From a virus: a stretch of 21,687 bases of DNA. The notes below the pieces were generated by a model. That model searched no databases and was not told the origin of the DNA. It saw only the letters and a list, made by a program, of their open reading frames with translations. Shown here piece by piece: positions 1,799 through 17,300 of this stretch. Within the stretch, counting starts at the first letter, position 1; every line of letters begins with the position of its first letter. The position numbers were made by a program, and so were the translations under genes. Location: positions 1 to 21,687 of IMG/VR virus record IMGVR_UViG_3300047319_001363; one strand, 5' to 3'.

Positions 1799-1802
1799 GT
1801 GA

Positions 1803-2653: not shown

Positions 2654-2666
2654 CATTTAGTTGCCC

Positions 2667-3275: not shown

Positions 3276-3298
3276 TTGATTGAGTTTAAGACGCGACC

Positions 3299-4513: not shown

Positions 4514-4631
4514 ACTTAGGAGAATCAGCCCGCCTAATGTAGCAAAACCCGTGGCTGCTGGCTAGGCCGTTGTTCCCACAGGCCGAATTGTCTCCGACCT
4601 TGTAGTCGCTGATTCGCCCGAGGGTCTCCGA

Positions 4632-4796: not shown

Positions 4797-4815
4797 ACTT
4801 AGGAGACGTGGTAAA

Positions 4816-5265
4816 ATGGATATTATTGAGAAGGCTCAGGCGTTGCAGAATCTGGTGGCGGTTTATCGTGACCTTGGCGACATGGAGGCTTTGGATGCCA
4901 TGTTGGCTGCGGTCAGGAAGGCCACCAGTGCAGAGCAGGAGGAGCAGGAGGAGCAGGCGGTTTCACGCGGGAGGCGGACTGGCATCAAGCGTGGACCTTA
5001 CAAGACCAGCGGGATGCGGATGGCGCTGATGGGTTCCGGCGTGATCACGCTGGAGGACTTGGTGCCGCTGGTCGAGCAGCATCAGCATGTCCCGGGCCGC
5101 ACTGTGGAGGCCAAGGGCGGCTGGCTGGCTGGCCAGATGCGCAAGAGCAAGCATGTCTACCGGGAGTGGCCGGATGGCCGCTGGAGTCTGCGCAACGACA
5201 ACTCTCCAGGACCGAAGGAAGTCCAGAAGGACGGACCCAACGGTTCGGCCCCGACCGGGAAGTAA
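4816..5265 (+). CDS. putative DNA-binding phage protein (basic linker plus winged-helix-like C-terminus)
   Basis: A 149-residue protein. Residues 1-45 are helical (IIEKAQALQNLVAVYRDLGD), then comes an acidic, Gln-rich stretch and a basic RGRRTGIKRGPYK segment that resembles an AT-hook-type linker. Residues 80-135 (VITLEDLVPLVEQHQ, then GWLAGQMRKSKHVYREWPDG and RWSL) resemble a small winged helix whose wing ends in a W-x-L strand. DNA binding is therefore plausible, but no family is firmly recognised. The ATG at 4816 is used because TAGGAGA of the second 13-bp repeat lies upstream; an in-frame start at 4765 would run through that repeat. It is the last rightward gene before the convergent terminator. 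Confidence 0.6.
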   Translation: MDIIEKAQALQNLVAVYRDLGDMEALDAMLAAVRKATSAEQEEQEEQAVSRGRRTGIKRGPYKTSGMRMALMGSGVITLEDLVPLVEQHQHVPGRTVEAKGGWLAGQMRKSKHVYREWPDGRWSLRNDNSPGPKEVQKDGPNGSAPTGK

Positions 5266-5276
5266 CTGACAAAAAA

Positions 5277-5312
5277 CAGGGTCCCTGCCCACGGAGACAA
5301 GCAGGGACCCTG
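5277..5312 (-). terminator. strong intrinsic terminator of the leftward sugar operon
   Basis: CAGGGTCCCTGC (5277-5288) and GCAGGGACCCTG (5301-5312) form a perfect 12-bp stem. Read leftward, it is followed directly by TTTTTT, a textbook Rho-independent terminator. It lies 50 bases beyond the stop of the last leftward gene (5362) and close to the stop of the rightward 4816-5265 gene, so it insulates the convergent units. The rightward side has no T-run. Confidence 0.9.
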
Positions 5313-5361
5313 ATGAGGATGCGTAGAGGGACGTTCAATCCAGCGAAGAGTCCGGATCGTA

Positions 5362-5667
5362 TCAGCACTCGGACTTGTTGGATACCCCCTGGGTCAGAAC
5401 CCGGTTGATAACCTGACCGCCCTCGAAGCTGTCGAGATAGACGAACTTCTCGCCGTCATAGATCTTTCTGACAACTCTGGTGTCAGTCATTGGATTGGCG
5501 TTATTCCGGTAGAGGTCCAGGGCGGTTTCCAAGGTGTCCATAATCTGCCCCAGGATGAACTTTGGCGGAGCCTCCGCTAGGGTAGTAGCTGCCACTTGTG
5601 CAGGTTTGGCAGCACTGGCGGCGACCGGAGCCCCGAGGATCAGGCCCAGCAGAGATCTGCGGTTCAT
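5362..5667 (-). CDS. putative exported protein, last gene of sugar operon
   Basis: A 101-residue protein with an N-terminal export signal: MNRRSLLGLILGAPVAASA has a twin-arginine-like RRSLLG followed by a hydrophobic stretch and an AxA cleavage site near residue 19. The mature part has no recognised domain; it contains a helical ILGQIMDTLETALDLYRNN and a strand-rich C-terminus (VVRKIYDGEKFVYLDSFEGG). The ATG overlaps the TGA of the upstream gene (ATGA). It is the final gene before the strong terminator at 5277-5312. An exported protein in an operon for a probable surface sugar is suggestive, but its role is unknown. Confidence 0.6.
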   Translation of the reverse strand: MNRRSLLGLILGAPVAASAAKPAQVAATTLAEAPPKFILGQIMDTLETALDLYRNNANPMTDTRVVRKIYDGEKFVYLDSFEGGQVINRVLTQGVSNKSEC

Positions 5668-5975
5668 GACGGCGTCACCGTTGTGACCGGCTTGTCCGGT
5701 GGCGGTAAGGGATAGGCCGCCGCTCGCTGAGCGAGGGCATCGACCTGGATCATGAACTGCTGGTCCATGTAGGCGCTGCTTTGCAGCGAGACCCTGGGAA
5801 CCCAGGCCGTCATCGGTGCTTGTTTGTTTCTCCAGACTTTCAGCATCAGCGTGTCGAATGGATTGTCGACCTTGATATCGGCAAGGAGGCTGAACTTGGC
5901 CGCCTCGGCGGTGACAATGGGCAGCAGGATCGCTTGGATCTGTTCGAGGCTCTGGCCTGGATCGAATGGGTTCAT
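5664..5975 (-). CDS. hypothetical protein downstream of pseI
   Basis: A 103-residue protein of unknown function. It begins MNPFDPGQSLEQIQAILLPI, contains a long helix (LLPIVTAEAAKFSLLADI) and a central tryptophan-containing segment (LKVWRNKQAPMTAWVPRVSL), and ends in a proline- and threonine-rich tail. The start at 5975 overlaps the pseI stop (ATGA), which argues against the longer in-frame extension into pseI. Its own stop overlaps the start of the exported-protein gene in the same way. Continuous overlaps place it in the operon, but nothing in the sequence suggests an enzymatic role. Confidence 0.55.
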   Translation of the reverse strand: MNPFDPGQSLEQIQAILLPIVTAEAAKFSLLADIKVDNPFDTLMLKVWRNKQAPMTAWVPRVSLQSSAYMDQQFMIQVDALAQRAAAYPLPPPDKPVTTVTPS

Positions 5976-6973
5976 TTCAGTGCATCTCCCCTGCGGTACT
6001 TCATCCCGGCCTTGCGGCCTATCAAGCTGGGCAACAGCTTGCATGGTAACCCATAGCCCGGTCGGATCGAACCGATATTCTCCAGCGAGAACTTCTCGCC
6101 CTTCTTGATGTCCTGGATGGCATAGAGACTCCGCCTGACCTGCCGGGTCGGATTGCTGTCCATCTTGGTCGGCTGCATGGCGGCATAGGTCTGCCTGACC
6201 TGATTAACCATGTGGGCAAAATCCCGTGGTCCCATCGAGAACTCGTCGTCCTCGGACACCACGTCCGGCAGATGGCCGAAGTGCTTCTCGATGATGCAGG
6301 CCCCGACCGCTACTGCTGCAATTGGCGCAAGGCTTCCTTCAGAATGGTCCGACAGTCCGACAACAGATCGTGGAAGCAGTCGCTGCAAGTGTCGGATCCC
6401 GCCAAGGTTAGATGTTTCGATGGTTCCAGGATATTCCGACATACAGTGCAGAAACGCGGCTTTGCCTCCGGAAGCCTGATCCGCGTCTTTGATCTCCTGG
6501 TCATTGCCCATCCCTGTAGAAATGATCATCGGTTTGCCGGTCGAGGCGGCATATTCAATCAATGGAATATCCACCAGTTCCATCGAGGCGATCTTGTAAG
6601 CCGGACAGTTCAACTTTTCCAAATGATCGATAGCCGACATATCGAACACCGAACTGAAGATGGTAATCCCGGAATCCTTGGCCACCCGGTACAGATCCGG
6701 ATGCCAGTCGAATGGGGTATGCGCCTTCTTGTATAGCTCCCACAGGGTCCGGCCCTTCCACAGCCCCTCCTGCACGATGAAGTCAGGCTTGTTCAGTTCG
6801 AGCGTAATGGTCTGCGGCTCATAGCACTGGGTCTTGATCGCCGAGGCCTTGGCTAATTTGGCCATCCGGATGATCTTCTTGGCGTTATCCAATGAGCCGC
6901 CATGGTTGCAGCTCATCTCGGCAATCACATAGGGCGGAAACTTCGGCCCGATATTGACCTTGTCGATCTTCAT
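5972..6973 (-). CDS. pseI: pseudaminic acid synthase (PseI, NeuB family)
   Basis: A 333-residue protein matching NeuB-type nonulosonic acid synthases, which condense a 6-deoxy-diacetamido-hexose with phosphoenolpyruvate. The TIM-barrel motifs are present: VIAEMSCNHGGSL (16-28), YKIASMELVDIPLI (126-139), KPMIISTGM (147-155), LSDHSEG with H210 and EKHF with H231, the two histidines expected to bind the metal. A C-terminal SAF/antifreeze-like domain runs from about 280 (RRSLYAIQDIKKGE ... SIRPGYGL). LWKGRTLWELYKKAHTPFDW and the C-terminal segment resemble Campylobacter PseI more than NeuB or LegI. The ATG overlaps the upstream stop (TGATG) with GAAGGGGA before it. Full length and intact; the substrate stereochemistry is inferred from similarity and the neighbouring PseB. 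Confidence 0.92.
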   Translation of the reverse strand: MKIDKVNIGPKFPPYVIAEMSCNHGGSLDNAKKIIRMAKLAKASAIKTQCYEPQTITLELNKPDFIVQEGLWKGRTLWELYKKAHTPFDWHPDLYRVAKDSGITIFSSVFDMSAIDHLEKLNCPAYKIASMELVDIPLIEYAASTGKPMIISTGMGNDQEIKDADQASGGKAAFLHCMSEYPGTIETSNLGGIRHLQRLLPRSVVGLSDHSEGSLAPIAAVAVGACIIEKHFGHLPDVVSEDDEFSMGPRDFAHMVNQVRQTYAAMQPTKMDSNPTRQVRRSLYAIQDIKKGEKFSLENIGSIRPGYGLPCKLLPSLIGRKAGMKYRRGDALK

Positions 6974-7161
6974 CAATTCCCCTTCGGGTCATCTCTGAGC
7001 TTTATCAACTCGGCGATCACCGTATCGAGACTGCCTCGTGGAAGGACAATCTGTTTGACGAAGCAGTCGTCCTCGTCATAGGCGGCAAAGTGAATGCCGT
7101 CGCACTCATCGCAGGTGAAAATCTGGACACGAACACAGTCCTCATCGATTTGCAGGATCAT
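6973..7161 (-). CDS. small paired-cysteine protein, paralog A
   Basis: A 62-residue protein with VQIFTCDECDGIHFAAYDED near the N-terminus and a C-terminal helix (SLDTVIAELIKLRDD). It is clearly related to the upstream gene at 7162-7362: both share [F/L]CD.C..IH.A.Y, a short strand, and a D-[T/A]-VI-E-[L/M]-[I/M]-K-[L/I]-RD helix. The single CxxC could bind metal in a dimer or act in redox chemistry; no function is known to me. The ATG immediately follows the stop of the paralog, and its stop overlaps the pseI start. The tandem pair inside the sugar operon probably arose by duplication. Confidence 0.65.
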   Translation of the reverse strand: MILQIDEDCVRVQIFTCDECDGIHFAAYDEDDCFVKQIVLPRGSLDTVIAELIKLRDDPKGN

Positions 7162-7362
7162 TCAATCCTCCTTTAGATTCAATTGATCCCGGATCTTCAT
7201 CATCTCGACAATGACAGCGTTAAGATCGTCCCGTCGAATCAAGGCCTGTCCTCGCAGGGTCTCATCCGGTGCATACATGGCGACGTGGATATCGGCGCAA
7301 CTGTCGCACAGGAATACCGTGATATGACAGTCGTTGGCTTTAGCTTTGAATGGAATGTCCAT
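7162..7362 (-). CDS. small paired-cysteine protein, paralog B
   Basis: A 66-residue protein, ITVFLCDSCADIHVAMYAPD followed by a helix DDLNAVIVEMMKIRDQLN. It aligns end to end with the adjacent 6973-7161 product, conserving the CDxC pair, IHxAxY and the C-terminal helix, so the two are tandem paralogs. Divergence is considerable, so the duplication is not recent or the pair was inherited together. The ATG at 7362 shares its first base with the stop of the upstream gene; the longer in-frame start at 7401 would lie inside that gene. Role unknown; it could form a heterodimer with its paralog. Confidence 0.65.
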   Translation of the reverse strand: MDIPFKAKANDCHITVFLCDSCADIHVAMYAPDETLRGQALIRRDDLNAVIVEMMKIRDQLNLKED

Positions 7363-7622
7363 CAGCCCTCCTTCAGCGCGGCATCGATCATGTCCATCCA
7401 CCGCTCCGCCGTCATGTCATGCTCGTAGGTGTCGTTGCCCGCCAGCAGCATCTCTTCGGTTGGCACCCGCATCTCGAACAGGCAGGCCCTGGCGATCATC
7501 TTGACCCGGCCCTGGTCCAGGAAGTCCAGTTCTTCGTATCTGGGTGCCCCCTCCGGAGCGTTGACCTTCCAGATGGCCATTGCCACCCGCTCGATCATGG
7601 TCGGTTCCACTGGTTCGTCCAT
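7362..7622 (-). CDS. conserved small phage protein (W..MIDAAL type)
   Basis: An 86-residue helical protein starting MDEPVEPTMIERVAMAIWKV and ending ERWMDMIDAALKEG. An N-terminal ERVAxAIW helix, a central R..ARA...MR.PT.EML and the terminal W..MIDAAL recur in small uncharacterised proteins of phages and their proteobacterial hosts, often in several copies per genome. The function is unknown. The start at 7622 has GGAGG directly upstream and is preferred over 7637. Its first 206 bases overlap, in another frame, the C-terminal end of the upstream 7417-8103 frame; this gene has the more natural protein sequence there. Confidence 0.7.
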   Translation of the reverse strand: MDEPVEPTMIERVAMAIWKVNAPEGAPRYEELDFLDQGRVKMIARACLFEMRVPTEEMLLAGNDTYEHDMTAERWMDMIDAALKEG

Positions 7623-8103
7623 CTTTCCTCCAGTCATCGATGTTGAACTTGCTCATGCCGATCAGCCGTTCCTGCGGCACCCACCAGCCCGACGAGTCGT
7701 TCTTCTTGTCGTAGGTCCAGAACTCGTGGCGCATGGTATCCTTCAGCATCATCCACCCGGCGATGACGAAGGTAAAACCGCGCCGTGGCGTGATCACCAG
7801 GACATAGGGCCGCTCCATGTCGGTATCGCTGGGATTGGTGATCAGATGGCCGCTTGCCACGGGCGTCGAGCGGATCTGCACCCCGAGAACATCCGGAGCC
7901 TTGTAGCTGCCGTTGGTCGGCTGCCAATAGACGCCATACTGCTTGGCCAGCATCTGCTCGGCATTAGCTCCGTCGATGTCACAGGACCAGTCGGACTTGG
8001 CGGCTTCGAGCCGGTTTGGCGAGCCACGCTCCAGCGAAGCGATACGGCGGTCAACACCACAGATGGCTCCGATCCGCAGTTCTGTCGGTGTGGCATCGAT
8101 CAT
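7417..8103 (-). CDS. conserved phage protein of unknown function with read-through C-terminus
   Basis: A 228-residue frame. Residues 1-159 look like a real domain: a GVYWQPTNG segment, KAPDVLGVQIRST (69-81), PYVLVITPRRGFTFVIAGWM (99-118), and GWWVPQERLIGM near 139-150. The pattern DVxGxxIR ... YVLV ... F.I.GW ... VPQE.L recurs in uncharacterised phage proteins and could reflect a degenerate PD-(D/E)XK-like fold, which is only a guess. After residue 160 the frame runs for 206 bases over the 7362-7622 gene, with Gly/Arg/Asp-rich shadow-like sequence, so the natural stop may have been lost. The ATG at 8103 is used; a GTG at 8121 overlapping the upstream stop (GTGA) is a good alternative. Confidence 0.55.
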   Translation of the reverse strand: MIDATPTELRIGAICGVDRRIASLERGSPNRLEAAKSDWSCDIDGANAEQMLAKQYGVYWQPTNGSYKAPDVLGVQIRSTPVASGHLITNPSDTDMERPYVLVITPRRGFTFVIAGWMMLKDTMRHEFWTYDKKNDSSGWWVPQERLIGMSKFNIDDWRKDGRTSGTDHDRAGGNGHLEGQRSGGGTQIRRTGLPGPGPGQDDRQGLPVRDAGANRRDAAGGQRHLRA

Positions 8104-8117
8104 GATCCTGTCTTCGG

Positions 8118-9248
8118 TCACTGGAGCGAGTCCCCTACTTCCTTGAAGATCTGACGCATGATCTTTCGCTGCTTCCTGTTGGGCGAATACGAGCAGACCT
8201 CGAAGGTCATCAGGTCGCAATCCTCCAGCGTTTCCGCTATTGGATGCACATCTGGCATGTTGAACACCCGATGTAGTGGCGGTGCGTAGCCCTCACGCAA
8301 CGGCAGACCGAAGCTGTTGATGCGGGCAACGAACTGCCGACGATCCCAATGCCAGATCTTGGCGGCCCAGATGTAATAGACATGATGGCAACCGTCCCGC
8401 TCGACCGGCGGATGGATGTTCGGATAGTCGAACACCATGTCGGTCAGCTCTAACGCCAGCTCCCTGCGATTCTCGATGATACCCGGACCTTTGCTCAACT
8501 GCGCCGAGGCCAGAGCCGCAATCGGCTCCGTCATTCTGAGGTTCAGACCCATGATCCCAGGCCGCAGCTCGCCGTGATTGACGGCATCTCTTACCTTGAG
8601 GGCGAGGTCGTCGTCGTCGCTGACGACGATTCCTCCTTCCCCAGTCTGGAGATGTTTATGAATGTTAAGGCTAAACACACCAAGATGGCCGACAGTGCCA
8701 GCGTAATGATCACCGACTTTGGCAAACGGACTCTGCGCATTGTCTTCGATCATCCAGACTTTGTTGTGGTCACACCAACGTCTTATCTCTTCGAGATAAG
8801 CCGGATGACCGAACAGGTTGGTGACGATAACAGCTTTTGGCTTTCCCTTCGAACCGCCGATCTGCTTAAGATCCATGGAGAATGTAACAGGCTCGATATC
8901 GATGAATTCTACATTTGCTCCAAGGATTTTAGCGCAGGATGCCGTGGCACTCATGGTGGTGGCAGGGCACCAGACCCTATCTCCGGGCCCAATGCCGACC
9001 GCCATGCATGCCGCCATCAACCCCGATGTGGCAGAATTACAGGGCACGGCATGTCGTACACCGAACGTAGATTGCCACTCGTCTGCGAGGCGCTGAACCC
9101 AATAGCCACCAGCATGATGACCACCAAGATAACCACTAAAAGGACGGCCCAAGGTCGATAGTACATAGCTCCTCTCCAGCCAGTTGCGGGTCTCGAACGG
9201 CTTCAGCACCCCAAGCTTGCTCTTCAACTTCGGCCCTAGTTTGTGCAT
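8118..9248 (-). CDS. DegT/DnrJ/EryC1/StrS-family sugar aminotransferase
   Basis: A 376-residue PLP enzyme. Motifs: CNSATSGLMAACMAVGI (70-86), WCPATTMSATA (93-103), MIEDNAQS with D169 facing the PLP ring nitrogen, and SLNIHKHLQTGEGG with K198 as the Schiff-base lysine. This family transfers an amino group to nucleotide-linked keto sugars. In a pseudaminic acid pathway it could act as PseC on the 4-keto product of PseB; its N-terminus (SGYLGGHHAGGYWV) is unlike classical PseC, so another keto-sugar is possible. The start at 9248 overlaps the end of the upstream reductase gene by 13 bases; the ribosome-binding site is weak. Longer in-frame extensions into that gene are rejected as shadow. Confidence 0.88.
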   Translation of the reverse strand: MHKLGPKLKSKLGVLKPFETRNWLERSYVLSTLGRPFSGYLGGHHAGGYWVQRLADEWQSTFGVRHAVPCNSATSGLMAACMAVGIGPGDRVWCPATTMSATASCAKILGANVEFIDIEPVTFSMDLKQIGGSKGKPKAVIVTNLFGHPAYLEEIRRWCDHNKVWMIEDNAQSPFAKVGDHYAGTVGHLGVFSLNIHKHLQTGEGGIVVSDDDDLALKVRDAVNHGELRPGIMGLNLRMTEPIAALASAQLSKGPGIIENRRELALELTDMVFDYPNIHPPVERDGCHHVYYIWAAKIWHWDRRQFVARINSFGLPLREGYAPPLHRVFNMPDVHPIAETLEDCDLMTFEVCSYSPNRKQRKIMRQIFKEVGDSLQ

Positions 9249-10087
9249 CGTATGCTCTGGCACATCCTGGCGATGTCCTGCTCCATGTTCGGCAGGGTAA
9301 AGCCGAACTTGCTCTCGACCCTGGTCAGGTCCAGCCTTGTGTCGAGCGGACGTGGAATCCGCCCTGGGATACCGACCGACTCCACCGGTCGCAGCCCCTT
9401 CAGGCTGTGGCCGAGGCCGTTGGCCAACAGCGCGGCAAACTTGGCTTTCGACATGCCGCTGGAAGAACCGAGATTGAAGGTGCCGGTTCGTGGCGTGTTG
9501 GCCATGGCCACCAGCCGTTCCGCCAAGGTCTGAGCCCACAGCGGACTGAACATGGCATCGGTATAGACATTGAACTCGACGCCTGACTTCAGCTTGCCGA
9601 TCATGAAATCGGCCAGACTGCTCCTGGCCGGTGATCGCGCCGTGCCATAGAAATTGGTCCGCACGATCAGGTGGTTCTGCACCTTGGCGGCGGCAAACTC
9701 GCCCATGAACTTGCTCATGCCGTACATATTGATGGGATTCTCGCTCTTGGAATGCTCGCGGTGCGGGCCGTTGCCGGAGTACACCATGTCGGTTGATATA
9801 TAAATCAACCGGCAGTTCCCCGGCATGTGAGCAGCGATGTTCTCCACCATGCCGCAGTTGTAGAGTACCGCCTTGTTCGGATCCTTCTCGCACTCATCGA
9901 TGTCGGTCAGCGCCGCAGCATGAACGATCATCTGCGGCGCTGTTTTTGCCATCCACGTCCTGACGCTGTCCCAGTCGGTCAGATCGCAACTGCTTCTGGC
10001 CAAGCCCTCGACAGTGCCAAGCCTGGAGAATGCCATCTTCAGGTACGGCCCCAGCAGCCCGGTGTCGCCCGTGACCAGGATCCTCAT
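9236..10087 (-). CDS. RmlD-like NAD(P)-dependent sugar reductase (extended SDR)
   Basis: A 283-residue short-chain dehydrogenase. The nucleotide-binding motif is VTGDTGLLG (5-13); IVHAAALTDIDECEKDP (54-70) is characteristic of dTDP-4-dehydrorhamnose reductases (RmlD) and methionine adenosyltransferase beta-type proteins; STD (98-100) and MYGMSK with Y122 and K126 give the catalytic triad. Substrate choice in this family cannot be read from sequence. It is not part of the standard pseudaminic pathway, so it may reduce a keto group to give a variant sugar or make a separate deoxysugar. The ATG at 10087 has CAGGAG upstream, somewhat distant. The C-terminus overlaps the aminotransferase start by 13 bases. 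Confidence 0.85.
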   Translation of the reverse strand: MRILVTGDTGLLGPYLKMAFSRLGTVEGLARSSCDLTDWDSVRTWMAKTAPQMIVHAAALTDIDECEKDPNKAVLYNCGMVENIAAHMPGNCRLIYISTDMVYSGNGPHREHSKSENPINMYGMSKFMGEFAAAKVQNHLIVRTNFYGTARSPARSSLADFMIGKLKSGVEFNVYTDAMFSPLWAQTLAERLVAMANTPRTGTFNLGSSSGMSKAKFAALLANGLGHSLKGLRPVESVGIPGRIPRPLDTRLDLTRVESKFGFTLPNMEQDIARMCQSIRCTN

Positions 10088-10104
10088 GTCCGTGTCAGCT
10101 CCTG

Positions 10105-10311
10105 TTACTTGGCGAGGTGGGTCCAGATCTTGCCGATCCGGTTGTCGTACTTCTGGATGTGGTTGATGACGCGACCGGATTCCCTGGGTGCCTCGCGAAC
10201 GGCGATGGCCAACAGCTCCATCCACTTGTCGTTGTTCCTGACCCTGATCTTGGCCATCCGGTCGATCAGGCTGCGCTTGGTCTTCGGTAACTCTTTGCGC
10301 TTCGTTCTCAT
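10105..10311 (-). CDS. hypothetical small basic protein between pseB and reductase genes
   Basis: A 68-residue protein. The first 20 residues are strongly basic (MRTKRKELPKTKRSLIDRMA); the rest reads RVRNNDKWMELLAIAVREAP and then a helix ending INHIQKYDNRIGKIWTHLAK. The NN(x)xWM..L..A...AP motif followed by I...D..I..L seems familiar from small proteins beside surface-sugar gene clusters, but I cannot name a family. The ATG overlaps the pseB stop (ATGA), supporting coupled translation and this start over the in-frame one at 10344. No catalytic or export signature is visible. It could be a scaffold or regulator of the pathway enzymes, which is speculation. Confidence 0.6.
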   Translation of the reverse strand: MRTKRKELPKTKRSLIDRMAKIRVRNNDKWMELLAIAVREAPRESGRVINHIQKYDNRIGKIWTHLAK

Positions 10312-11261
10312 AACATCCCTCTCAGTTGTTCGATGGTTAACCAATCGACATTAGTGTCGCTGGTGTAGCGCCATCCTGGAGGCACACGATTCTCGTAGTC
10401 TCTTTTTTTATGTCCAGGCTGGTCGATGCAGTAGAAGTTTGCGAAATCGGTTGTGTTCAGGCTTTCGTCTTCGGTGATCAGTGTCTCGTGGATTTTTTCT
10501 CCAGGTCTGATGCCGGTGTTGAATTCCAGAAATCCGTAATCGTCGCAAACAGCAACTGCAAGATCTCTGATTCTAATCGATGGAATCTTCGGTATGAGAA
10601 TCTTCGAGTGAATTCCGACACTAGCCAACTCCTCTGCGTAGAGGACCAGCTTAACGCTCTGATCCATGGTGATCCAGAACCGCGTCATTCTTTCATCGGT
10701 AACCTTGAGGACTTTGCCCTCCGCCTTTCGCTTCTTAAATAATGGAAGAACAGAACCCCGCGAACCGGCAACATTGCCATATCGCACAACATTGTAATGG
10801 CACCCGCCAGCGGCCAAGGCATTCGCTGCGACAAATATCTTTTCCGCTGCAAGCTTCGATGCACCATAAAGGTTGATTGGATTAACGGCCTTATCTGTCG
10901 ATAGTGCGACAACTCGCTGGACCTTAGCTCTGAGCGAAGCCTTAACCACATTCTCAGCCCCTGTGACATTGGTGGCGATGCATTCGGTTGGATTGTACTC
11001 GGCGGTCGGCACGATCTTCAGCGCGGCGGCATGGATCACGGTATCGATGCCACGCATTGCCATCTCCAGACGGTCGAGGTCGCGGACATCGCCAATGAAG
11101 AAGCGCAATCGCTCGTCGTTGAAGCTATGCGCCATCTCCTCCTGGGTATGTTCGCCCCTGGAGTAGATTGCGATTCGCTCGACACTCGGATCCTTGAGTA
11201 TCCGACTGGCGAAGGCTTGGCCGAACGAGCCTGAGCCGCCAGTGATCAGGACGGATTTCAT
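10308..11261 (-). CDS. pseB: UDP-N-acetylglucosamine 4,6-dehydratase/5-epimerase (PseB)
   Basis: A 317-residue extended SDR enzyme that matches PseB/FlaA1, which converts UDP-GlcNAc to UDP-2-acetamido-2,6-dideoxy-beta-L-arabino-hexos-4-ulose, the first step to pseudaminic acid. Motifs: TGGSGSFG (7-14), IYSRGE (32-37), IGDVRD (56-61), LKIVPTAEYNP (81-91), LSTDKAVNPINLYGASK (120-136). T122, D123, K124 and Y132 correspond with a constant offset to the T131, D132, K133 and Y141 catalytic residues reported for Helicobacter FlaA1. VRYGNVAGSRGSV and RMTRFWI follow as expected. Length is close to the family norm and the protein looks intact. Its ATG overlaps the stop of the upstream fusion gene (ATGA). 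It supplies the 4-keto substrate for an aminotransferase. Confidence 0.92.
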   Translation of the reverse strand: MKSVLITGGSGSFGQAFASRILKDPSVERIAIYSRGEHTQEEMAHSFNDERLRFFIGDVRDLDRLEMAMRGIDTVIHAAALKIVPTAEYNPTECIATNVTGAENVVKASLRAKVQRVVALSTDKAVNPINLYGASKLAAEKIFVAANALAAGGCHYNVVRYGNVAGSRGSVLPLFKKRKAEGKVLKVTDERMTRFWITMDQSVKLVLYAEELASVGIHSKILIPKIPSIRIRDLAVAVCDDYGFLEFNTGIRPGEKIHETLITEDESLNTTDFANFYCIDQPGHKKRDYENRVPPGWRYTSDTNVDWLTIEQLRGML

Positions 11262-13294
11262 GCGGACTTTCTTAAGGATTGACCGGCGATAGTACCTTTG
11301 AGGCGACTCGACATGATGCCTTGCTGCAAGACATCATTGATTACATCCATGGTATGTTTATAGGCTCGACGGATGATCTCGATCTCTGGATCTTTAATGG
11401 CGTAAGATACGCAATTAGCATTCAGGATCAGCACACCCATCCGCGCCATTTCCTGGGTGAACAGAGCCTGGATCTGTTCCTTGGTTGCGCCAAGGAAATC
11501 ATGAACGTCCAGTTTCAGGAGCGGTGGCGAGCCACGAAACGCAATTGGACCAGAATAGTGTGATGTTCTTTCAAGTAGCGGTGCTTCAGATCGGATCTTC
11601 AATCCAACAGAGTATAGATGATCAAGGACGTTCTCCCGTTCCATCTTCTTGATAGTGGCGAGTGCAGCAGCCATCGACAGAGTGTCACCAAAGAAGGTGC
11701 CGGAGAAGAACACGCCGAGGTGGCCGTTCAGCATCTTCATGATCCCGGCATCACCGACCAGAGCCGAGATCGGCATTCCGTTGGCCATCGACTTGCCGAA
11801 GCAAGCAAGATCGGGTGTGACACCAAAATACTCCTGACCACCGCCCATGGCGTAACGGAAGCCAGTCTGGATCTCATCGAAGATCAGAATGATTTCGTTC
11901 CTGGTACACCATGACCGTAATGCCTGGAGGTATTCCCTGTCGTGGGTTGGCTCGACAATGACGGCGGCGACATCGCTCCAGTCTTCGCCCCAGTCTCTTA
12001 ATTCATCGAGATCACCGTATTCGATCTTGTGTGACAGATTGGTTACGGATTCTGGAATTCCTTTGTTCTTTCCTTCCAGTGTTGAGGCTGACCAATCAGC
12101 CCAGCCATGGTAGGATCCGATTAGAATATGATCCCGTTCGGTGTAGGCCCTGGCCAGCCTGACTGCCGCCGATGTCACATCGGTACCGGACTTGCCGAAC
12201 TGGACCTTATCGGCACAAGGAATCAGGTCGCACAGCTTCTCGCTTAACTCACATTCAAGCTTGGTGGCCAGACTGAAGCTCATGCCGCAGTTCAGTTGCC
12301 GCCGCACCGCCTCATCAACGTCAGGATCGCGGTAACCTAGGACAACAGGAAGTAGAGCATTAACAAGATCAACATAGTCGTTCCCATCAACATCAAAAAT
12401 CCTCGCACCATCGCCATGAGAGGCGAATAGTGGAGCCCCGCCCCTGGGATACCAAAGAGCAGACTTCGAGTATGTTTGGGACCCAAGGGGAATTGTCCTG
12501 GTGGCTCGTACCAGCAGCTCATCTGACCGTTGATATGTTCGTTCTGGTAATCGTTCTCCAGCGAGGTCCTGGTAGAACCGCTCATTTCGAATGGCTCCAG
12601 CATTGATTTGCCTCAGGTGTGGGTTGTCATCGAGGATCCGCATGATATGCATGCATGTCGGCGGGAAAGCCAGCGGCAGTTGCTTGGCGATTTCCTTGCA
12701 CAGCTCGTAGTCTTCCTTGGTGTCGAGGACCCATCGCTCCTTGTGTGCCCCAGGAAACGGGCAAATCAGGTATTCCTGGGAGAACCGATCCCGGTTGCGG
12801 ATGATCCACTGTGTCACACAGTCCCGATCTGTCTTCCTGGTGGTCTCTCTCCAGGCTGTTTCCAGCGCATCGAAGGTGAGACACTCGACATCCAATCCGT
12901 CTGGCCATGTCGGCTGGTTGGAACAGTACGAAGCACCCGTCGTCTTTTGTAGTTGGACGACCTGTCCGACCACATAAGGGTCGAGGAACGGACAATCACA
13001 GGTGATTCGCAGGATAATGTCGGCTTTATAGTCTTTCGCACATTGATAATAGCGGTTCAGCACATCCTTTTCTGAGCCACGGAAGCAATCGATGCGGTTC
13101 TGTCTGCAATCCTTGGCTAGAACATCATCGGATTCCAGCGTGGTGGTGGCGATCACCACCTGATTGACTCCTGGAGAGTTGACTAACGCCCGCCAGACCC
13201 AGCGATACACCGGCATGCCTCCGAGTGGAGCCATCACCTTGCCAGGGAACCGCGTCGAGCCCATCCTAGCCTGGGCAATCGCAACGACTTTCAT
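11258..13294 (-). CDS. fused SpsF-type cytidylyltransferase and class III aminotransferase
   Basis: A 678-residue two-domain protein. Residues 1-235 are an SpsF/COG1861-type nucleotidyltransferase: IAQARMGSTRFPGKV (6-20), then LRITCDCPFLDP (95-106) with D100 as a likely metal ligand; such enzymes activate sugars as CMP derivatives. Residues 255-665 are a class III (HemL/glutamate-1-semialdehyde aminomutase-like) PLP domain: GKSGTDVTSAAVRLARA (367-383), GSYHGWADW (393-401), IFDEIQTGFR (471-480) and LACFGKSMANGMP with K501 as the Schiff-base lysine. No frameshift or internal stop is seen, so it is one polypeptide. The first domain could provide the PseF-type CMP step; the second domain's substrate is unknown. 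ATGA overlaps join it to both neighbours. Confidence 0.9.
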   Translation of the reverse strand: MKVVAIAQARMGSTRFPGKVMAPLGGMPVYRWVWRALVNSPGVNQVVIATTTLESDDVLAKDCRQNRIDCFRGSEKDVLNRYYQCAKDYKADIILRITCDCPFLDPYVVGQVVQLQKTTGASYCSNQPTWPDGLDVECLTFDALETAWRETTRKTDRDCVTQWIIRNRDRFSQEYLICPFPGAHKERWVLDTKEDYELCKEIAKQLPLAFPPTCMHIMRILDDNPHLRQINAGAIRNERFYQDLAGERLPERTYQRSDELLVRATRTIPLGSQTYSKSALWYPRGGAPLFASHGDGARIFDVDGNDYVDLVNALLPVVLGYRDPDVDEAVRRQLNCGMSFSLATKLECELSEKLCDLIPCADKVQFGKSGTDVTSAAVRLARAYTERDHILIGSYHGWADWSASTLEGKNKGIPESVTNLSHKIEYGDLDELRDWGEDWSDVAAVIVEPTHDREYLQALRSWCTRNEIILIFDEIQTGFRYAMGGGQEYFGVTPDLACFGKSMANGMPISALVGDAGIMKMLNGHLGVFFSGTFFGDTLSMAAALATIKKMERENVLDHLYSVGLKIRSEAPLLERTSHYSGPIAFRGSPPLLKLDVHDFLGATKEQIQALFTQEMARMGVLILNANCVSYAIKDPEIEIIRRAYKHTMDVINDVLQQGIMSSRLKGTIAGQSLRKSA

Positions 13295-14190
13295 TCCAGT
13301 CCCGCCTGTTTACGAACCTCAAGACAGATTTTGAGAACCTCAAGACCTTCTTCACCGGTACAGCCGATGGTTTCTTTGCCATCGATGCGGTCCAGGAATG
13401 CCTGCATTTCTTCAACATAATTTTCGTTCCAGGTGTCGAAGCCTTGATAACTATCAATAGGTCGCTCAATACCGAAGACGGCACCATTCCTATTCACAAG
13501 GTCACAGGAGATGCGACCATTATCACCAATGATGGTGAAGAACCTTAATTCCGGTCTTGTAACGTAATCCAGATGAACCGTAGTTCGACATCCTATGTCA
13601 TGCGTTAAGAGAATATCCGATATATCGTCCTTGCCATTAGTGAGGCAAGTCGATGAGCCAGCAACGATAGCAGGGCCAAGAAGGTAAAGAGCAAGATCCA
13701 ACTCATGGCTCCAATTGAGAATAACACCATCGCGTAGATAATGAGGTCGGTCGTTGTATTGACCGAGTGTAAAATTGGCCCAGATTGGCTTTCCAATAAT
13801 CCCAGCACCTAACCACTCCTTGGCTTTCTTGACGCAGCTATGGTAGCGGAGATTGTAGCCAACCATTGCTCTTTGGTTAAACGAGCTTGGCTCAACTATC
13901 GCCGGTAGAAGTATGTCGTATTCTTGTTGTGTGGTGGCGATTGGTTTCTCAATTAATATCGGTTTTGGATGTGTCACTATAATATGTTTATAGTGCTGAT
14001 CTGTCGGGCTGGCGATGACGAATGCATCCAAATTTATCAGCCTTGATTCCGGCCATAGCCTCCAGAAGGAAGGGAAATCCTCTGCGGCCACCTCGGGATC
14101 AAAACCAACAACATTATGGCCCATAGCCATGAGATTCTTGGCATGCCTCATGCCGATACTGCCAAGCCCAATCACACCGACTGTTTTCAT
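13291..14190 (-). CDS. Gfo/Idh/MocA-family oxidoreductase
   Basis: A 299-residue NAD(P)-dependent dehydrogenase. The Rossmann motif is GVIGLGSIGMRHAKNL (5-20), and the family signature EKP occurs at 81-83 (ILIEKPIATT). The C-terminal alpha/beta domain contains NWSHELDLALYLLG, which holds a candidate catalytic histidine, and the usual ending with a long helix. Family members oxidise or reduce sugars or nucleotide sugars, and several work in amino- and deoxysugar clusters. No step of standard pseudaminic synthesis needs it, so it may set a variant configuration or feed the aminotransferases. It is slightly short for the family but complete. ATGA overlaps link it to the gene before and the gene after. 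Confidence 0.85.
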   Translation of the reverse strand: MKTVGVIGLGSIGMRHAKNLMAMGHNVVGFDPEVAAEDFPSFWRLWPESRLINLDAFVIASPTDQHYKHIIVTHPKPILIEKPIATTQQEYDILLPAIVEPSSFNQRAMVGYNLRYHSCVKKAKEWLGAGIIGKPIWANFTLGQYNDRPHYLRDGVILNWSHELDLALYLLGPAIVAGSSTCLTNGKDDISDILLTHDIGCRTTVHLDYVTRPELRFFTIIGDNGRISCDLVNRNGAVFGIERPIDSYQGFDTWNENYVEEMQAFLDRIDGKETIGCTGEEGLEVLKICLEVRKQAGLE

Positions 14191-14339
14191 TTAGGCACAC
14201 AATAGAGGTATTTCCATTTATCTTTATGAAGAGTCTCCATTGCGGCGCGACATGATTGCTCCGAATTAAACTCAATAGAGTAAGGTACATATCCGCTATA
14301 AACAGCAACAAACATTATCAAGATCCATGGTGTCATCAT
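14187..14339 (-). CDS. small exported or membrane-anchored protein
   Basis: A 50-residue protein, MMTPWILIMFVAVYSGYVPY followed by a polar domain with two cysteines (SEQSCRAAMETL ... YLYCVPK). Residues 4-18 are hydrophobic and act as a signal sequence or a membrane anchor; the two cysteines could form a disulfide in the periplasm. Similar small proteins with an F-x-S-x-x-x-C-x-x-A-M...L and a terminal CVP are found in proteobacteria and phages, without known function. The ATG overlaps the methyltransferase stop, with GGAG five bases upstream; the second ATG three bases later is equally possible. Its stop overlaps the next start (ATGA). Confidence 0.6.
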   Translation of the reverse strand: MMTPWILIMFVAVYSGYVPYSIEFNSEQSCRAAMETLHKDKWKYLYCVPK

Positions 14340-14941
14340 TTCTTCTCCGGGAATGCGTTTTTGAGATCCTTCTTGAGGATCGTAACGCTGGTTTCGTTTT
14401 GAATGGTTCGCCCATAGAGCGAATAGCCGGGATGGCTGAGCCACAGATTGGCAAAGTCGTAGTGATACGAGAACAGCCCAGGCTTATGCTTGTAGGGGAC
14501 TCGGTGTGCAGCGGCTGGCGTGAAGTCATGGACGATGAGAAATCCACCATCCTGTAGAACCTGATCTCCCTCGAATGCGATTTCGAAATAGTCCTCGGGG
14601 TCACAGAGATAGAGACACCATCCGTAGATCAGAAGATCTGCCAAGTTTGGTGAGAAATGATGCGAGAGCTTGTCTGCGGTGCCAGCCCAGACCTGGACCT
14701 TGGATTGTCCTCTGGTCGAGATATAACACGGATCAATCCCCTCGACCTCACAGTCGTATCTCTGTTCGATGATGGCGAGCCGCCAGCCATTGGAACAGCC
14801 AATCTCAACCGCTCTCTTTGGTTTGATGTTGTATACCTCAAGCGCTTGCAGGACCGGATCGTTCTTTCCGGTCAGCTTGGCTTCATTGCGCTTCAGCCAT
14901 TCGGCTCCCTCGCCAAGGGCGAAGACTCTAGATTGCTTCAT
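14336..14941 (-). CDS. class I SAM-dependent methyltransferase
   Basis: A 201-residue protein. Motif I is AVEIGCSNGW (44-53), and the following acidic strand end is VEGIDP (66-71) with D70, giving a complete SAM-binding Rossmann core; LADLLIYGWCLYLCDPEDYF and GGFLIVHDF match motifs IV to VI of this superfamily. The target cannot be read from sequence. Within the operon, O- or N-methylation of a sugar or its amino group is likely, and similar methyltransferases occur in nonulosonic acid clusters. The start at 14941 overlaps the GNAT stop (ATGA); the longer in-frame start at 14965 would run into the GNAT gene. The end overlaps the exported-protein start. Confidence 0.82.
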   Translation of the reverse strand: MKQSRVFALGEGAEWLKRNEAKLTGKNDPVLQALEVYNIKPKRAVEIGCSNGWRLAIIEQRYDCEVEGIDPCYISTRGQSKVQVWAGTADKLSHHFSPNLADLLIYGWCLYLCDPEDYFEIAFEGDQVLQDGGFLIVHDFTPAAAHRVPYKHKPGLFSYHYDFANLWLSHPGYSLYGRTIQNETSVTILKKDLKNAFPEKK

Positions 14942-15453
14942 GGTGCGAATTTTCCAAAGGTCCACATGCTCATCGGCTGACCGTCAAACAGGAAATGACC
15001 GGGAACGACTGCCTCTTGGCTCATTCCATACTCGGTGCAAATTTTGATCATTTTGACGTTTGCTACCATGCAGCCCGCCTCGATTTTTCTGATTTGCTTT
15101 CTGGCAAACAGATAATCACAGACCGCCTTCCAGGCTTCGTAGCCATAGCCGTTGCCCCACTGGGTCCTGTCTCCGATCATGATGGCGACATTGGCGAGGT
15201 TGTTTTTGTCGTCCACATTGACTGATATCGATCCAATCGCGGCATAGGATGTCAGCAACCGAATCGTATTGGTGCTGTTAGGTTCCACGGTCGCGGCGGA
15301 GTACCAATAATCAAGTTGGGTGTCCGCTGAGTGGGTGTAGTGCCGGTGTTCCGAGTATTTGACGACCTCTGGATCGTTCAGCCATTCCGCAAATTGCGGT
15401 GCATCCGAAGTGTGGACCGGACCAATCTCTAGACGTGGAGATTTCAGAATCAT
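14938..15453 (-). CDS. GNAT-family N-acetyltransferase (possible PseH role)
   Basis: A 171-residue acetyltransferase of the RimJ/RimL/PseH-like type. The N-terminal substrate-contacting strand-helix is SPRLEIGPVHTSDAPQFAEW; the acetyl-CoA pyrophosphate loop is QWGNGYGYEA (98-107), followed by the helix WKAVCDYLFARKQIRKIEAG and the IKICTEYGM segment typical of motif B. In pseudaminic acid synthesis PseH acetylates the 4-amino sugar made by PseC, and this is the only acetyltransferase in the cassette, so that role is a natural inference. It could equally modify a later intermediate. The start at 15453 overlaps the stop of the 54-residue first gene, and its stop overlaps the methyltransferase start. 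Confidence 0.85.
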   Translation of the reverse strand: MILKSPRLEIGPVHTSDAPQFAEWLNDPEVVKYSEHRHYTHSADTQLDYWYSAATVEPNSTNTIRLLTSYAAIGSISVNVDDKNNLANVAIMIGDRTQWGNGYGYEAWKAVCDYLFARKQIRKIEAGCMVANVKMIKICTEYGMSQEAVVPGHFLFDGQPMSMWTFGKFAP

Positions 15454-15614
15454 TTCTTTTTTACCGTTGCTTTGATGTGTCTGACCACCTCCAGAAGCTG
15501 CTGTGCCAGGAACAGGATCTCCGGAGACTCGGCGGAGCGGCCACCCCAGCGGGTGAGGTAATCCACCTTGTTTGTTAGTTGTCTCTCAAGCTCGATGGCC
15601 TCGTCCTTGGTCAT
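15450..15614 (-). CDS. hypothetical 54-residue first gene of the sugar operon
   Basis: A 54-residue, largely helical protein, MTKDEAIELERQLTNKVDYL followed by a segment with RWGGRSAE and a second helix (LFLAQQLLEVVRHIKATVKKK). It has the look of a small two-helix coiled coil. No family is recognised. The ATG at 15614 has GAGGAGG immediately before it, one of the best ribosome-binding sites in the window, and it is the first gene of the leftward operon, diverging from TerL. A much longer in-frame extension across TerL is clearly a shadow. The GNAT start overlaps its stop (ATGA). Confidence 0.65.
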   Translation of the reverse strand: MTKDEAIELERQLTNKVDYLTRWGGRSAESPEILFLAQQLLEVVRHIKATVKKK

Positions 15615-15653
15615 GGTACCTCCTCGATCATGGGTAGCCCAATTTGGGTTTGA

Positions 15654-15682
15654 TTGCCCACAACTATCTCGCACCCTATAGT
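15654..15682 (+). promoter_or_regulatory. candidate sigma70-type promoter for TerL and structural genes
   Basis: TTGCCC (15654-15659) and TATAGT (15677-15682) are separated by exactly 17 bases, a good fit to a -35/-10 pair with a near-consensus -10. Transcription would begin near 15689, ahead of the ATG at 15708 and after the TTG at 15654 that would give a longer TerL, so it supports the shorter start. The gap to the leftward operon start is under 100 bases, so its promoter must overlap here too. Confidence 0.45.
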
Positions 15683-15707
15683 TCGCTATCCACAGGTCCG
15701 TGCTTTC

Positions 15708-17300
15708 ATGATCCTCAACAAGATGGCCAAGGCTGCTACGCAGATTGCCAAGTTGAAGGAGCGTGATGTCTATGAAGGCACCCTGATCGAGTTTGCCGAA
15801 TACGTCTGGCCGGTGGTGGAACCTGCGATTCCCTTCATCCGTGGCTGGGCCATCGAGGCGATTGCCGAGCATCTCCAGGCTGTTACCGATGGCTACATCA
15901 AGCGGCTGTTGATGAACGTGCCGCCGGGATTCACCAAGTCCCTGATGACCGATGTGTTCTGGCCCGCCTACGAGTGGGGTCCCAAGAACATGCCGTGGCT
16001 GCGGTATGTCTGCGCTTCCTACTCCAACCACCTGACCGAACGAGACAACATGCGATGCCGCAACATCGTGATCTCGGATCGCTATCAGCGGATGTGGGGC
16101 TCCCGGTTCAAGATCTCCAACGAGCAGTTCACCAAGATCAAGTTCGCCAACGACCATACCGGGTGGAAGCTGGCGACCTCGGTGGGCGGCATCGGCGTCG
16201 GCGAGCGGGGGGATCGGTTCATCATTGACGACCCGAACAACACCATGGACATGGAGTCCGAACAGGTCCGGGACACCACCAACCTGTGGTTTACCGAGGT
16301 CGTTCCCGACCGCCTGAACAACCCCCAGGAAAGCGCAATTGTCATTATACAACAAAGGCTTCATGAGGATGATGTGAGCGGAATCGCGCTGTCTCGGGAG
16401 ATGGGATACACCCACCTGATGATCCCGATGGAGCATGACACATCAAGGCATTGTGTGACTGTTTTGGGGCTAAATGATGATAATAGCCCCAAGACCTGGG
16501 AGGATCCACGGAAAGAAGACGGCGAGCTGGCTTGGCCGGAGCGGTTTACCCAGAAGGTTTGCGAAGATCTGGAGCGGGATAAGGGTCCCCACGCCTGGGC
16601 CGGTCAGTACATGCAGAGCCCGGAACCCCGTGGCGGGTCGATCATCAAGCGGGATTTCTGGCAGTTGTGGGAGGAAGACAAGTTTCCGGAGTTTGAGTAC
16701 ATCCTGGGGTCGGTGGACACCGCCTATACGGACAAAGAAGAGAACGATCCCAGTGCCTTGACCATCTGGGGTGTGTTCCGCGACATCAACAAGAACCCCA
16801 AGATGATGCTGATGTATGCTTGGCAGGAAAGATTACAGTTTCACGAGCTGCTTCAGAAGCTTATCGCCACCTGCACCATCGGCATCGGACCCAAGAAGGG
16901 CCCCCAGTTCCGGGTGGACCGGCTGCTGATCGAGTCCAAGGCCAGCGGGCTGTCGGTTGTCCAGGAACTGCATCGCCTGATCCAGGCCACCGGCAAGATG
17001 GGTGTCGAGTCGAATTCTGTCAAAGGCGACAAATACGCCCGACTGCAATCGGTTCAGCATCTATTCTCCGATGGCATGATCTATGCGCCTGACCGCTCCT
17101 TTGCCGACATGGTGATCGATCAGTGTGCGGTGTTTCCCAAGGGATCACGCGACGACTTGGTCGACTCGACCTCTCAGGCGCTGAAGTATCTGCGTGACAC
17201 CGGCTTTGCATTGCGGCGCGAGGAATACTCTGTAGAAGCTCATGAGGAAATGCTGTACCGTGGTCCATCTTATAACGCTCCGATTTACGGTAATTATTGA
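15708..17300 (+). CDS. terL: terminase large subunit (TerL)
   Basis: A 530-residue packaging motor. ATPase: VPPGFTKSLM (71-80) as Walker A, and GDRFIIDDPNN (168-178) as Walker B. Nuclease: GSVDTAYTDKEENDPSALT with D337 as the first RNase H-fold aspartate, LLIESKASG (407-414) with E409, and RDDLVDSTSQAL (480-491) with the C-terminal aspartates. This gp17-like two-domain enzyme pumps DNA into proheads and cuts concatemers. Length is normal. The ATG at 15708 is chosen over a TTG at 15654 because a promoter-like pair lies between them; the ribosome-binding site is weak. The stop overlaps the portal start (TGATG). Its usual partner TerS is about 14 kb away. Confidence 0.95.
   Translation: MILNKMAKAATQIAKLKERDVYEGTLIEFAEYVWPVVEPAIPFIRGWAIEAIAEHLQAVTDGYIKRLLMNVPPGFTKSLMTDVFWPAYEWGPKNMPWLRYVCASYSNHLTERDNMRCRNIVISDRYQRMWGSRFKISNEQFTKIKFANDHTGWKLATSVGGIGVGERGDRFIIDDPNNTMDMESEQVRDTTNLWFTEVVPDRLNNPQESAIVIIQQRLHEDDVSGIALSREMGYTHLMIPMEHDTSRHCVTVLGLNDDNSPKTWEDPRKEDGELAWPERFTQKVCEDLERDKGPHAWAGQYMQSPEPRGGSIIKRDFWQLWEEDKFPEFEYILGSVDTAYTDKEENDPSALTIWGVFRDINKNPKMMLMYAWQERLQFHELLQKLIATCTIGIGPKKGPQFRVDRLLIESKASGLSVVQELHRLIQATGKMGVESNSVKGDKYARLQSVQHLFSDGMIYAPDRSFADMVIDQCAVFPKGSRDDLVDSTSQALKYLRDTGFALRREEYSVEAHEEMLYRGPSYNAPIYGNY

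Follow-up and report, generated by a model that had tools for sequence, protein, structure and literature searches.

Gene content of the operon and its flanks

The DNA analysed here is a stretch of 21,687 nucleotides (the window, positions 1-21,687), in which an operon runs on the minus strand from position 15614 down to 5362, all of its genes overlapping or tightly packed. At its 3' end lies an intrinsic-terminator-like site on the same strand (5312-5277), made up of a stem of 16 pairs with a T run behind it; no stem is longer among the 24 terminator-like sites listed for positions 1-20000. The head of the operon adjoins divergent plus-strand genes for the terminase large subunit (15654-17300; phrog_38, E 6e-80) and the portal protein (17297-19837; phrog_1216, E 1.5e-23). 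On the other flank, the terminase small subunit is encoded at 999-1592 (plus strand); the same gene at 37724-38317 of the 75.5-kb phage contig IMGVR_UViG_3300046724_000152 (G001) matches phrog_51 with E 1.2e-12. The initial annotation had described a single leftward operon with a strong terminator, next to terminase and portal genes, and this layout was confirmed.

The operon starts with a short ORF of 54 aa (15450-15614) that had no match in the Pfam search and is common to relatives (families f72/f87); a profile built from six of these (sm72) matches the copy in a separate contig, L005, with 39 bits. It is followed by a GNAT acyltransferase (14938-15453; PF13302, E 5.4e-21), a candidate for the PseH step whose NCBIfam matches did not include the PseH model, and by a methyltransferase (14336-14965) that is conserved in relatives and can be called probable, as its PF13489 match is weak (E 3.4e-4, below the Pfam cut-off). 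Next come a Gfo/Idh/MocA-type oxidoreductase (13291-14190; PF22725, PF01408 and PF02894 above cut-off) and a fusion protein, FUS (11258-13294), which joins an SpsF-type CTP transferase domain (CTP_transf_3, PF02348, E 9.3e-28; residues about 4-205) to a class-III, GSAM-like aminotransferase (PF00202, E 2.3e-48; about 254-676). Profile searches against the PDB paired the two halves with the cytidylyltransferase 6oew and the GSAM 5i92, respectively, and the PseF model was absent among the best 25 of the 74 NCBIfam matches of FUS. The CMP-transferase domain proposed earlier is therefore present, but the aminotransferase half of the fusion had been missed.

PseB, the inverting UDP-GlcNAc 4,6-dehydratase (10308-11261), clears the TIGR03589 cut-off narrowly (409.9 versus 407.75 bits), and its best solved relative is 2gn4 (303 bits), in an alignment that covers the STDK...Y...K stretch. 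PseI, of the pseudaminic acid synthase family (5972-6976), scores 367.5 bits against a TIGR03586 cut-off of 340.25, and is closest to the PseI structure 8h2c (258.9 bits, versus 141.5 for SpsE and 133.3 for NeuB). Since both proteins exceed the NCBI cut-offs, both earlier names hold. Between these two genes are a 79-aa ORF (10105-10344) with no match in the Pfam search and a likeness, by eye only, to family f39 of the relatives, an RmlD-type oxidoreductase (9236-10087; PF04321, E 3e-49; TIGR01214 164.7, under the cut-off of 224), a DegT-family sugar aminotransferase (8118-9257; PF01041, E 6e-51), and four short ORFs from the ORF list that together cover 6973-8112. The first of these (7417-8112) had no Pfam match, and among them (the others being 7362-7637, 7162-7401 and 6973-7161) only 7362-7637 has a copy in the related genome G002. 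Two more listed short ORFs (5664-6044, without a Pfam match, and 5362-5667) close the operon at 5362-6044. The DegT and GNAT families and the two further oxidoreductases of the initial annotation were thus all recovered by Pfam.

The DegT protein is not of the PseC type: it reaches 143.5 bits against the PseC model TIGR03588, far below the cut-off of 423.5, and the Helicobacter pylori PseC structure 2fn6 ranks 41st among its solved relatives (58.6 bits). PseG was likewise absent, with TIGR03590 found in none of 20 phage records and PF04101 in none of 14, and control bacteria positive for both. Because the PseC and PseG families are absent, a complete canonical pseudaminic acid (Pse) pathway in the operon is ruled out. 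Of the pseudaminic-acid-type operon proposed at the outset, what stands is a phage-borne nonulosonic acid (NulO) operon with PseB and PseI; the canonical pathway is incomplete, and the CMP-transferase is the SpsF-type domain of a fusion. Family membership supports the view that the operon is a NulO module of pseudaminic type, the product of which may differ from pseudaminic acid itself.

Conservation in a lineage of tailed phages

The operon is a lineage-wide module, beyond what the initial annotation could see, of uncultivated, diverged tailed phages whose genomes measure some 65-77 kb. An earlier tally, in which PseB, FUS, PseI, Gfo/Idh and DegT were present in 8/8 large genomes, was circular because those genomes had been found through FUS or PseI. 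We therefore relied on records chosen by the terminase or by fam16, a gene family discussed below. Of the records found by the terminase, nine extend 554 bases or more upstream, and operon genes were present in 8 of these 9. The 80 fam16 loci that were kept yielded 15 large records (at least 60 kb), 7 first found via FUS or PseI and 8 via fam16 alone; FUS, PseB, DegT, Gfo/Idh and GNAT genes occurred in all 15, the methyltransferase in 14 and a PseI-family match in 13. A NeuB search was positive in 11 of 22 fam16 records; mapping covered 10 of the 22, the other 12 all being below 52 kb. G041 lacks PseI, G042 has a different NeuB type in its place and G048 carries a shortened copy, so these phages do not in every case need or retain a synthase of their own. 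Some phages of the lineage additionally encode a formyltransferase. The RmlD-type gene, found only in G001 and G002 among 30 phage records (E 1e-30), is not a member of the conserved core. Among 50,697 records of sequenced phages, PseI was found in three (all below 32% identity), fam16 in one, and FUS over 80% of its length in none, with 62 partial matches.

In the FUS tree, 24 phage rows fell on one side of a branch with an SH-aLRT of 100, and this phage clade sits beside alphaproteobacterial homologues. Distances for FUS, DegT, Gfo/Idh and GNAT track terminase distances (Mantel r 0.36-0.56, 0/999 permutations), and those for PseB and fam16 do so loosely (r 0.19 and 0.30). Between G001 and G002, dN/dS was 0.07-0.21 for six enzymes versus 0.07-0.10 for terminase, portal and capsid, with dS near saturation. 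The lineage-wide presence and the FUS clade rule out a sporadic auxiliary metabolic gene of patchy, recent host origin, and together with the terminase-tracking distances they also rule out a recent stray acquisition.

That the operon is real and phage-borne is equally clear from the contigs. The initial annotation had considered a chimera of phage and bacterial DNA, and apart from the bacterial ancestry of the enzymes we found nothing in favor of this or of a recent stray host cluster. Positions 12-21687 of the window align gap-free to G001 at 99.97%, and L005, a 6.2-kb contig from another metagenome, spans the terminase-operon junction in one piece (98.1%). With a junction that recurs in independent contigs and throughout the lineage, the FUS clade of the phages, and end repeats of 114-127 bases that fit complete genomes (G002, G008, G015, G017, G042 and G050), the chimera is ruled out and the explanation as a whole is scarcely credible.

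fam16 as a candidate transferase

The fam16 gene is encoded outside the window, where the initial annotation could not see it, with the head and tail genes of the same phage genomes, and had no earlier annotation in PHROGs. The idea that it sits directly beside the capsid gene was weakened by measurement, since the distance was 1.7-7.8 kb in 14 of the 15 large records and at least 29 kb in G048. Maf (5mu5) and CstII were named as expected fold matches before the Foldseek search was run. With the predicted structure, 12 of the 14 chains with E <= 0.001 were sialyltransferases (CstII, E 5.9e-6), and VIA Z scores gave near ties of 11.6 for Maf 5mu5, 11.2 for CstII and 11.1 for CstI, the GT42/Maf-like part being residues 76-243. 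This fold leaves the function unsettled because HPPK (Z 10.3) and thiamin pyrophosphokinase (10.2) follow closely upon the sialyltransferases (10.7-11.6). fam16 models as a Maf/CstII-like sialyltransferase fold and is a candidate transferase.

At the sequence level, a loose first look for Maf in this first lineage had flagged one candidate in 9/16 records, none of which scored. PF01973 (MptE/Maf) matched fam16 in 0/16 lineage records and in 0/10 even at E 10, and no Maf was found by sequence in these records; a weak match was seen in 5 of 52 fam16 members. Profile comparison with 101 control families also gave no grounds to equate fam16 with Maf, as its E of 0.0038 to phage Maf was no better than that of controls (capsid family 0.002, f75 0.0043). 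Profile searches of fam16 against PDB sequences returned nothing meaningful (best E 0.21). A second phage lineage carries PseB, an SpsF and PseI, and has two to three MptE/Maf-family genes in 4/4 records, which in G018 lie 0.7 kb from the capsid gene.

Proposed function and known systems

Taken together, the operon and a sialyltransferase-fold protein suggest that these viruses put a sugar coat on some target, which could be their own particles. We give an even chance to the reading that a CMP-nonulosonic acid is synthesized by the phage and then transferred, with the virion as the probable target. By family, PseB would start from UDP-GlcNAc, PseI would condense the six-carbon sugar with PEP, and the SpsF-type domain could load CMP. 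The DegT enzyme may add the C4 amine, which is PseC's step; GNAT, in some phages with the formyltransferase, may acylate the sugar amine; and the Gfo/Idh enzyme and class-III aminotransferase might serve further amine or other sugar tailoring, with the methyltransferase methylating the sugar. UDP would be removed by host PseG or another enzyme. Judging from its fold, position and co-occurrence, fam16 would then hand the activated sugar on to an acceptor that is most probably a protein of the virion, with particle hiding, changed adsorption or stability as candidate benefits. Weighing against this reading are the missing PseC and PseG, the uneven fate of PseI, the lack of a PF01973 match in the lineage and of a profile score above controls, the fold shared with the two pyrophosphokinases, the distant fam16 of G048 and the loose tracking of terminase distances by PseB and fam16.

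Of the three purposes proposed initially (blocking rival phages, disguising the host, decorating the virion), the last gains weight from fam16 and the second phage lineage. The alternative that, in the infected or lysogenic cell, the operon alters the flagellin, LPS or capsule on the surface of the host, and so blocks rivals or disguises the cell, seems rather unlikely to us. The closest bacterial clusters do serve flagellin glycosylation, with flagellins and a Maf transferase alongside in L031 (Magnetovibrio) and Maf in L030; the L031 arrangement also counts in favor of a NulO that is made and attached by the phage. Since the cytosol is where bacterial Maf enzymes act on flagellin, host flagellin would still be within reach of a transferase located there. 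Tyrosine integrases (PF00589) in 3/16 records and the precedent of the Acinetobacter prophage genes epaA-epaB (PMC12053666) are in line with such a role, but 13/16 records lack PF00589, the only integrase type sought, and the candidate transferase sits among head and tail genes.

A different question is whether the phage supplements or alters a host pseudaminic-acid pathway instead of making the NulO alone, with host PseC and PseG filling the missing steps. This is a serious possibility that we nevertheless hold at somewhat below even: PseG occurs in 14/16 genomes of bacterial relatives and in 54/80 bacterial loci, and the loss of PseI in G041 fits as well, yet such a role would leave PseB and PseI superfluous, although all 15 large records keep PseB and 13 keep PseI. 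This alternative concerns the route and is compatible with virion decoration. Transfer to phage DNA or another small acceptor, with fam16 a pyrophosphokinase-like protein unrelated to the sugar, appears improbable. The fold common to HPPK and thiamin pyrophosphokinase, the failure of sequence to place fam16 in PF01973 and the DNA glucosylation known in T-even phages (PMC9614988) speak for it; on the other side, fam16 accompanies NulO genes in 15/15 large records and shares a short locus with PseI in 7 of 16 distant loci (L281-L296), and the 21 Pfam families recorded for 55 G002 proteins include no thiamin or pterin gene. More tentative than virion attachment itself, and a little short of even, is the broader view that the lineage is regularly equipped with its own NulO module and an enzyme of sialyltransferase fold and coats its virion with a sialic-acid-like sugar, and that at least one unrelated lineage reached the same design with Maf-family transferases by the capsid gene.

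Nonulosonic acids are cell-surface recognition sugars. That a virus lineage retains the genes for making them despite wide sequence divergence would imply an ability of tailed phages to coat themselves with sialic-acid-like residues, and if true this would have consequences for phage adsorption, defence and immune clearance. The module would also be a compact supply of new NulO enzymes, with a route that lacks PseG, a fusion of CTP transferase with aminotransferase and a small candidate NulO transferase, and it offers a testable claim on fam16.

Mycobacteriophage glycosylation is reportedly described in the Maravista announcement. Giant viruses resemble the present case in virus-encoded sugar synthesis or capsid glycosylation, but in both systems the sugars and enzymes are others, and passages of PMC9614988 contain no NulO synthase. 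Single genes of the NulO kind have already been noticed in viruses, namely neuB and neuA in a 2013 table of viral-metagenome genes (PMC3877843) and a sialyltransferase-annotated gene in an Azotobacter phage (PMC12772287); a phage NulO synthesis operon was not reported among the literature matches listed. The Acinetobacter prophages also carry phage genes that act on pseudaminic acid, but according to PMC12053666 these two genes convert host-made Pse on the capsule to its 8-epimer, without synthesis. The Maf and GT42 (CstII/CstI) transferases share the predicted fold of fam16, and the central PF01973 domain of Maf is reported to be similar to CstII (PMC11339370); fam16 differs in having no PF01973 match and is known from sequence and predicted fold.

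Among bacterial pathways, the legionaminic acid sps pathway of Bacillus subtilis shares an SpsF-type cytidylyltransferase predicted to load CMP, a PseI-related SpsE and a GNAT, but requires the SpsG hydrolase and serves the spore crust (PMC7439481). In the Vibrio B9-25K2 cluster, a bifunctional SpsF-like cytidylyltransferase replaces NeuA (PMC7371886); as in FUS, an SpsF-like domain is fused within a Pse cluster, but that cluster is bacterial and the partner is an aldo-keto reductase and not a class-III aminotransferase. The flagellin Pse pathway (PseB-C-H-G-I-F) has the same PseB and PseI families, whereas the phage operon does without PseC and PseG, uses an acyltransferase and a CMP-transferase of other families, and adds an aminotransferase, an oxidoreductase and a methyltransferase. 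Alphaproteobacterial nab clusters with FUS (e.g. L031, L035, L036 and L038) also hold Gfo/Idh, PseB, PseI and GNAT genes, with a second DegT matching the phage DegT in L035, L036 and L038 (424-433 bits) and a formyltransferase in L036 (200 bits). They differ from the phage operon in additionally encoding a PseC-like DegT and PseG and, in L031, flagellin and Maf.

A nonulosonic acid operon in phage DNA

The DNA that carries the operon is phage DNA. The 21,687-base virus record aligns without gaps, at 99.97% identity, to bases 36737-58412 of the 75.5-kb contig G001, and the junction between terminase and operon is spanned, at 98.1%, by a contig from a different metagenome. The operon is also present in the 76-kb record G002, which has an end repeat of 127 bases, at protein identities of 57-77%. 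In the window it occupies minus-strand positions 15614 to 5362 and encodes a GNAT acetyltransferase, a probable methyltransferase (MT), a Gfo/Idh/MocA oxidoreductase, an SpsF-type CTP transferase fused to a class-III aminotransferase (FUS), PseB, an RmlD-type oxidoreductase, a DegT aminotransferase, and PseI. Short ORFs are interspersed among these genes, a terminator-like stem of 16 pairs forms the 3' end, and the terminase large subunit and portal genes are divergent neighbours. Elsewhere in the window we observed a SLOG-family protein (YAcAr, PF10686; 594-1061) and, amid structural genes, a GroES-like co-chaperonin (PF00166; 20967-21380) that is conserved in relatives.

PseB and PseI scored above the NCBI equivalog cut-offs, PseB by a narrow margin. 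The nearest solved proteins were PseB 2gn4 (303 bits) and PseI 8h2c (259 bits, versus 141 for SpsE and 133 for NeuB). DegT was rejected as a PseC: it scored 143.5 bits where the cut-off is 423.5, and its match to the PseC structure 2fn6 reached 58.6 bits, with 114 bits for the top-scoring row.

The operon as a module of a phage lineage

The operon is a module of a phage lineage (lineage 1). A scan with the terminase only returned 11 loci, and operon genes were found in 8 of the 9 with 554 or more bases of sequence ahead of the terminase (L012 and L014, which begin within the terminase, were left out of this count); the ninth, L015, lacks them and its terminase is just 32% identical. Scans with FUS and PseI returned 16 and 35 viral loci, respectively. 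In the mapped contigs, portal-terminase is divergent from GNAT-(MT)-Gfo/Idh-FUS-PseB-DegT-PseI, with a different order of PseB, DegT, and PseI in G016 and G017. Mean pairwise identity within the lineage is 55% for both FUS and terminase (minima 46% and 42%). Between G001 and G002, dN/dS was 0.07-0.21 for PseB, FUS, PseI, Gfo/Idh, DegT, and GNAT (MT left out) and 0.07-0.10 for terminase, portal, and capsid, figures that are estimates with synonymous sites close to saturation. Distances of FUS, DegT, Gfo/Idh, and GNAT track those of the terminase (Mantel r 0.36-0.56, 0/999), those of PseI do so less (r 0.34, 6/999), and those of PseB barely (r 0.19, 22/999). Lineage-1 PseB is of two kinds, a canonical one that includes the window's and a divergent phage-only one, which seem swapped between otherwise similar operons. 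By eye, HNH-type, homing-like ORFs (family f37) interrupt the operon in G013 (19824-20348) and G015 (45475-45990). A second acetyltransferase (phrog_1249) lies amid tail genes in 8/8 large operon genomes (G001 10994-11503 and relatives).

Bacterial relatives and pathway steps

In a quick FUS tree of 24 phage and 48 cellular rows (LG+G4, SH-aLRT only), a branch with a support of 100 set all phage rows apart, with Rhodospirillales-type sequences next to them. PseI from three phage lineages also grouped together (support 90-91), G042 excepted. Judging by their nearest enzymes, which are alphaproteobacterial, we infer an alphaproteobacterial host; isolates whose terminases come closest include Roseobacter and Paracoccus phages (37-38%). 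Among 80 cellular FUS loci, the fetched stretches, many of which end at contig ends, contained PseI in 62, PseB in 59, DegT in 58, PseG in 54, and Gfo/Idh in 33. The phage DegT resembles the second DegT of the bacterial loci L035, L036, and L038 (424-433 bits) and not their PseC-like DegT (93-111 bits).

PseG (TIGR03590) was present in 14/16 genomes of bacterial relatives and in 0/20 phage records, and PF04101 in 0/14 phage records. The UDP-removing step would therefore be supplied either by the host or by an unrecognised enzyme. The synthase is the least stable operon gene: PseI is absent from G041 (L301-L304), gives way to a different NeuB type in G042 (L305-L308), and is shortened in G048 (L313-L316) to an ORF of ~230 aa without the C-terminal part; G045 and G051 have similar short NeuB frames. 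A hint of N-formyl sugars comes from a formyltransferase (PF00551; L165:8774-9379, family f43) encoded in the operon of G005, G008, G012 (a near-copy of G008), G016, and G017.

A candidate transferase and its acceptor

A second phage lineage (G018-G021; L198-L213), with a different terminase and capsid phrog_9953, also encodes PseB, a separate SpsF, and PseI. All four records carry two or three MptE/Maf-family genes (PF01973), and in G018 a distance of 0.7 kb separates the first of them from the capsid gene; none was found in 16 lineage-1 records. The search for a lineage-1 counterpart yielded fam16, a family of ~310 residues. In 14/15 large records its gene follows the capsid gene downstream by 1.7-7.8 kb, and in G048 the two are at least 29 kb apart. 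The fam16 sequence was not assigned to PF01973, and profile comparison was no better than for control families. With Maf 5mu5 and CstII set down as expected matches ahead of any fold search, an AlphaFold2 structure (mean pLDDT 83, with most blocks in residues 71-300 above 87) was compared with the PDB: of the 14 chains matched at E <= 0.001, 12 were CstII or a Pasteurella sialyltransferase. VIA-align Z was 11.6 for 5mu5, 11.2 for CstII, 11.1 for CstI, and 10.7 for 9c08, and beyond sialyltransferases 10.3 for HPPK and 10.2 for thiamin pyrophosphokinase, rows at most 1 Z unit apart being tied. Given these ties, and since the latter two have the same fold, the fold is not in itself proof of function.

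The connection of fam16 to the sugar comes from its co-occurrence with nonulosonic acid genes. Of 108 fam16 loci, 80 were kept, and every one of the 15 records of at least 60 kb among these carries the operon; 8 of the 15 were found through fam16 alone. In 7/16 distant fam16 loci, the short locus also contains PseI, at a spacing of 1.1-1.8 kb in G057 and G058. Distances of fam16 and terminase gave a Mantel r of 0.30 (3/999). In a Microcystis phage (L336, PP496355.1), a fam16 relative (35% over 174 aa) annotated as type 11 methyltransferase sits directly ahead of the terminase genes.

Most likely, these phages make a CMP-activated pseudaminic-type nonulosonic acid and attach it via fam16: the operon would synthesise the activated sugar, and fam16 would transfer it to an acceptor. 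The position of the fam16 gene favours the virion as that acceptor. Alternatively, flagellin or other surface glycans of the host may serve in this role; among bacterial clusters with FUS, L031 has two flagellins and a Maf transferase alongside, and in L030 a Maf gene adjoins. A tyrosine integrase occurs in 3/16 records, and lysogeny is therefore possible for some of the phages.

No close relative was found among 50,697 records of sequenced phages, and the matches listed from the open-access full-text literature held no report of a phage operon for nonulosonic acid synthesis. Modification of host pseudaminic acid by phage genes has already been described (PMC12053666), as have virus-made glycans and capsid glycosylation (PMC9614988).
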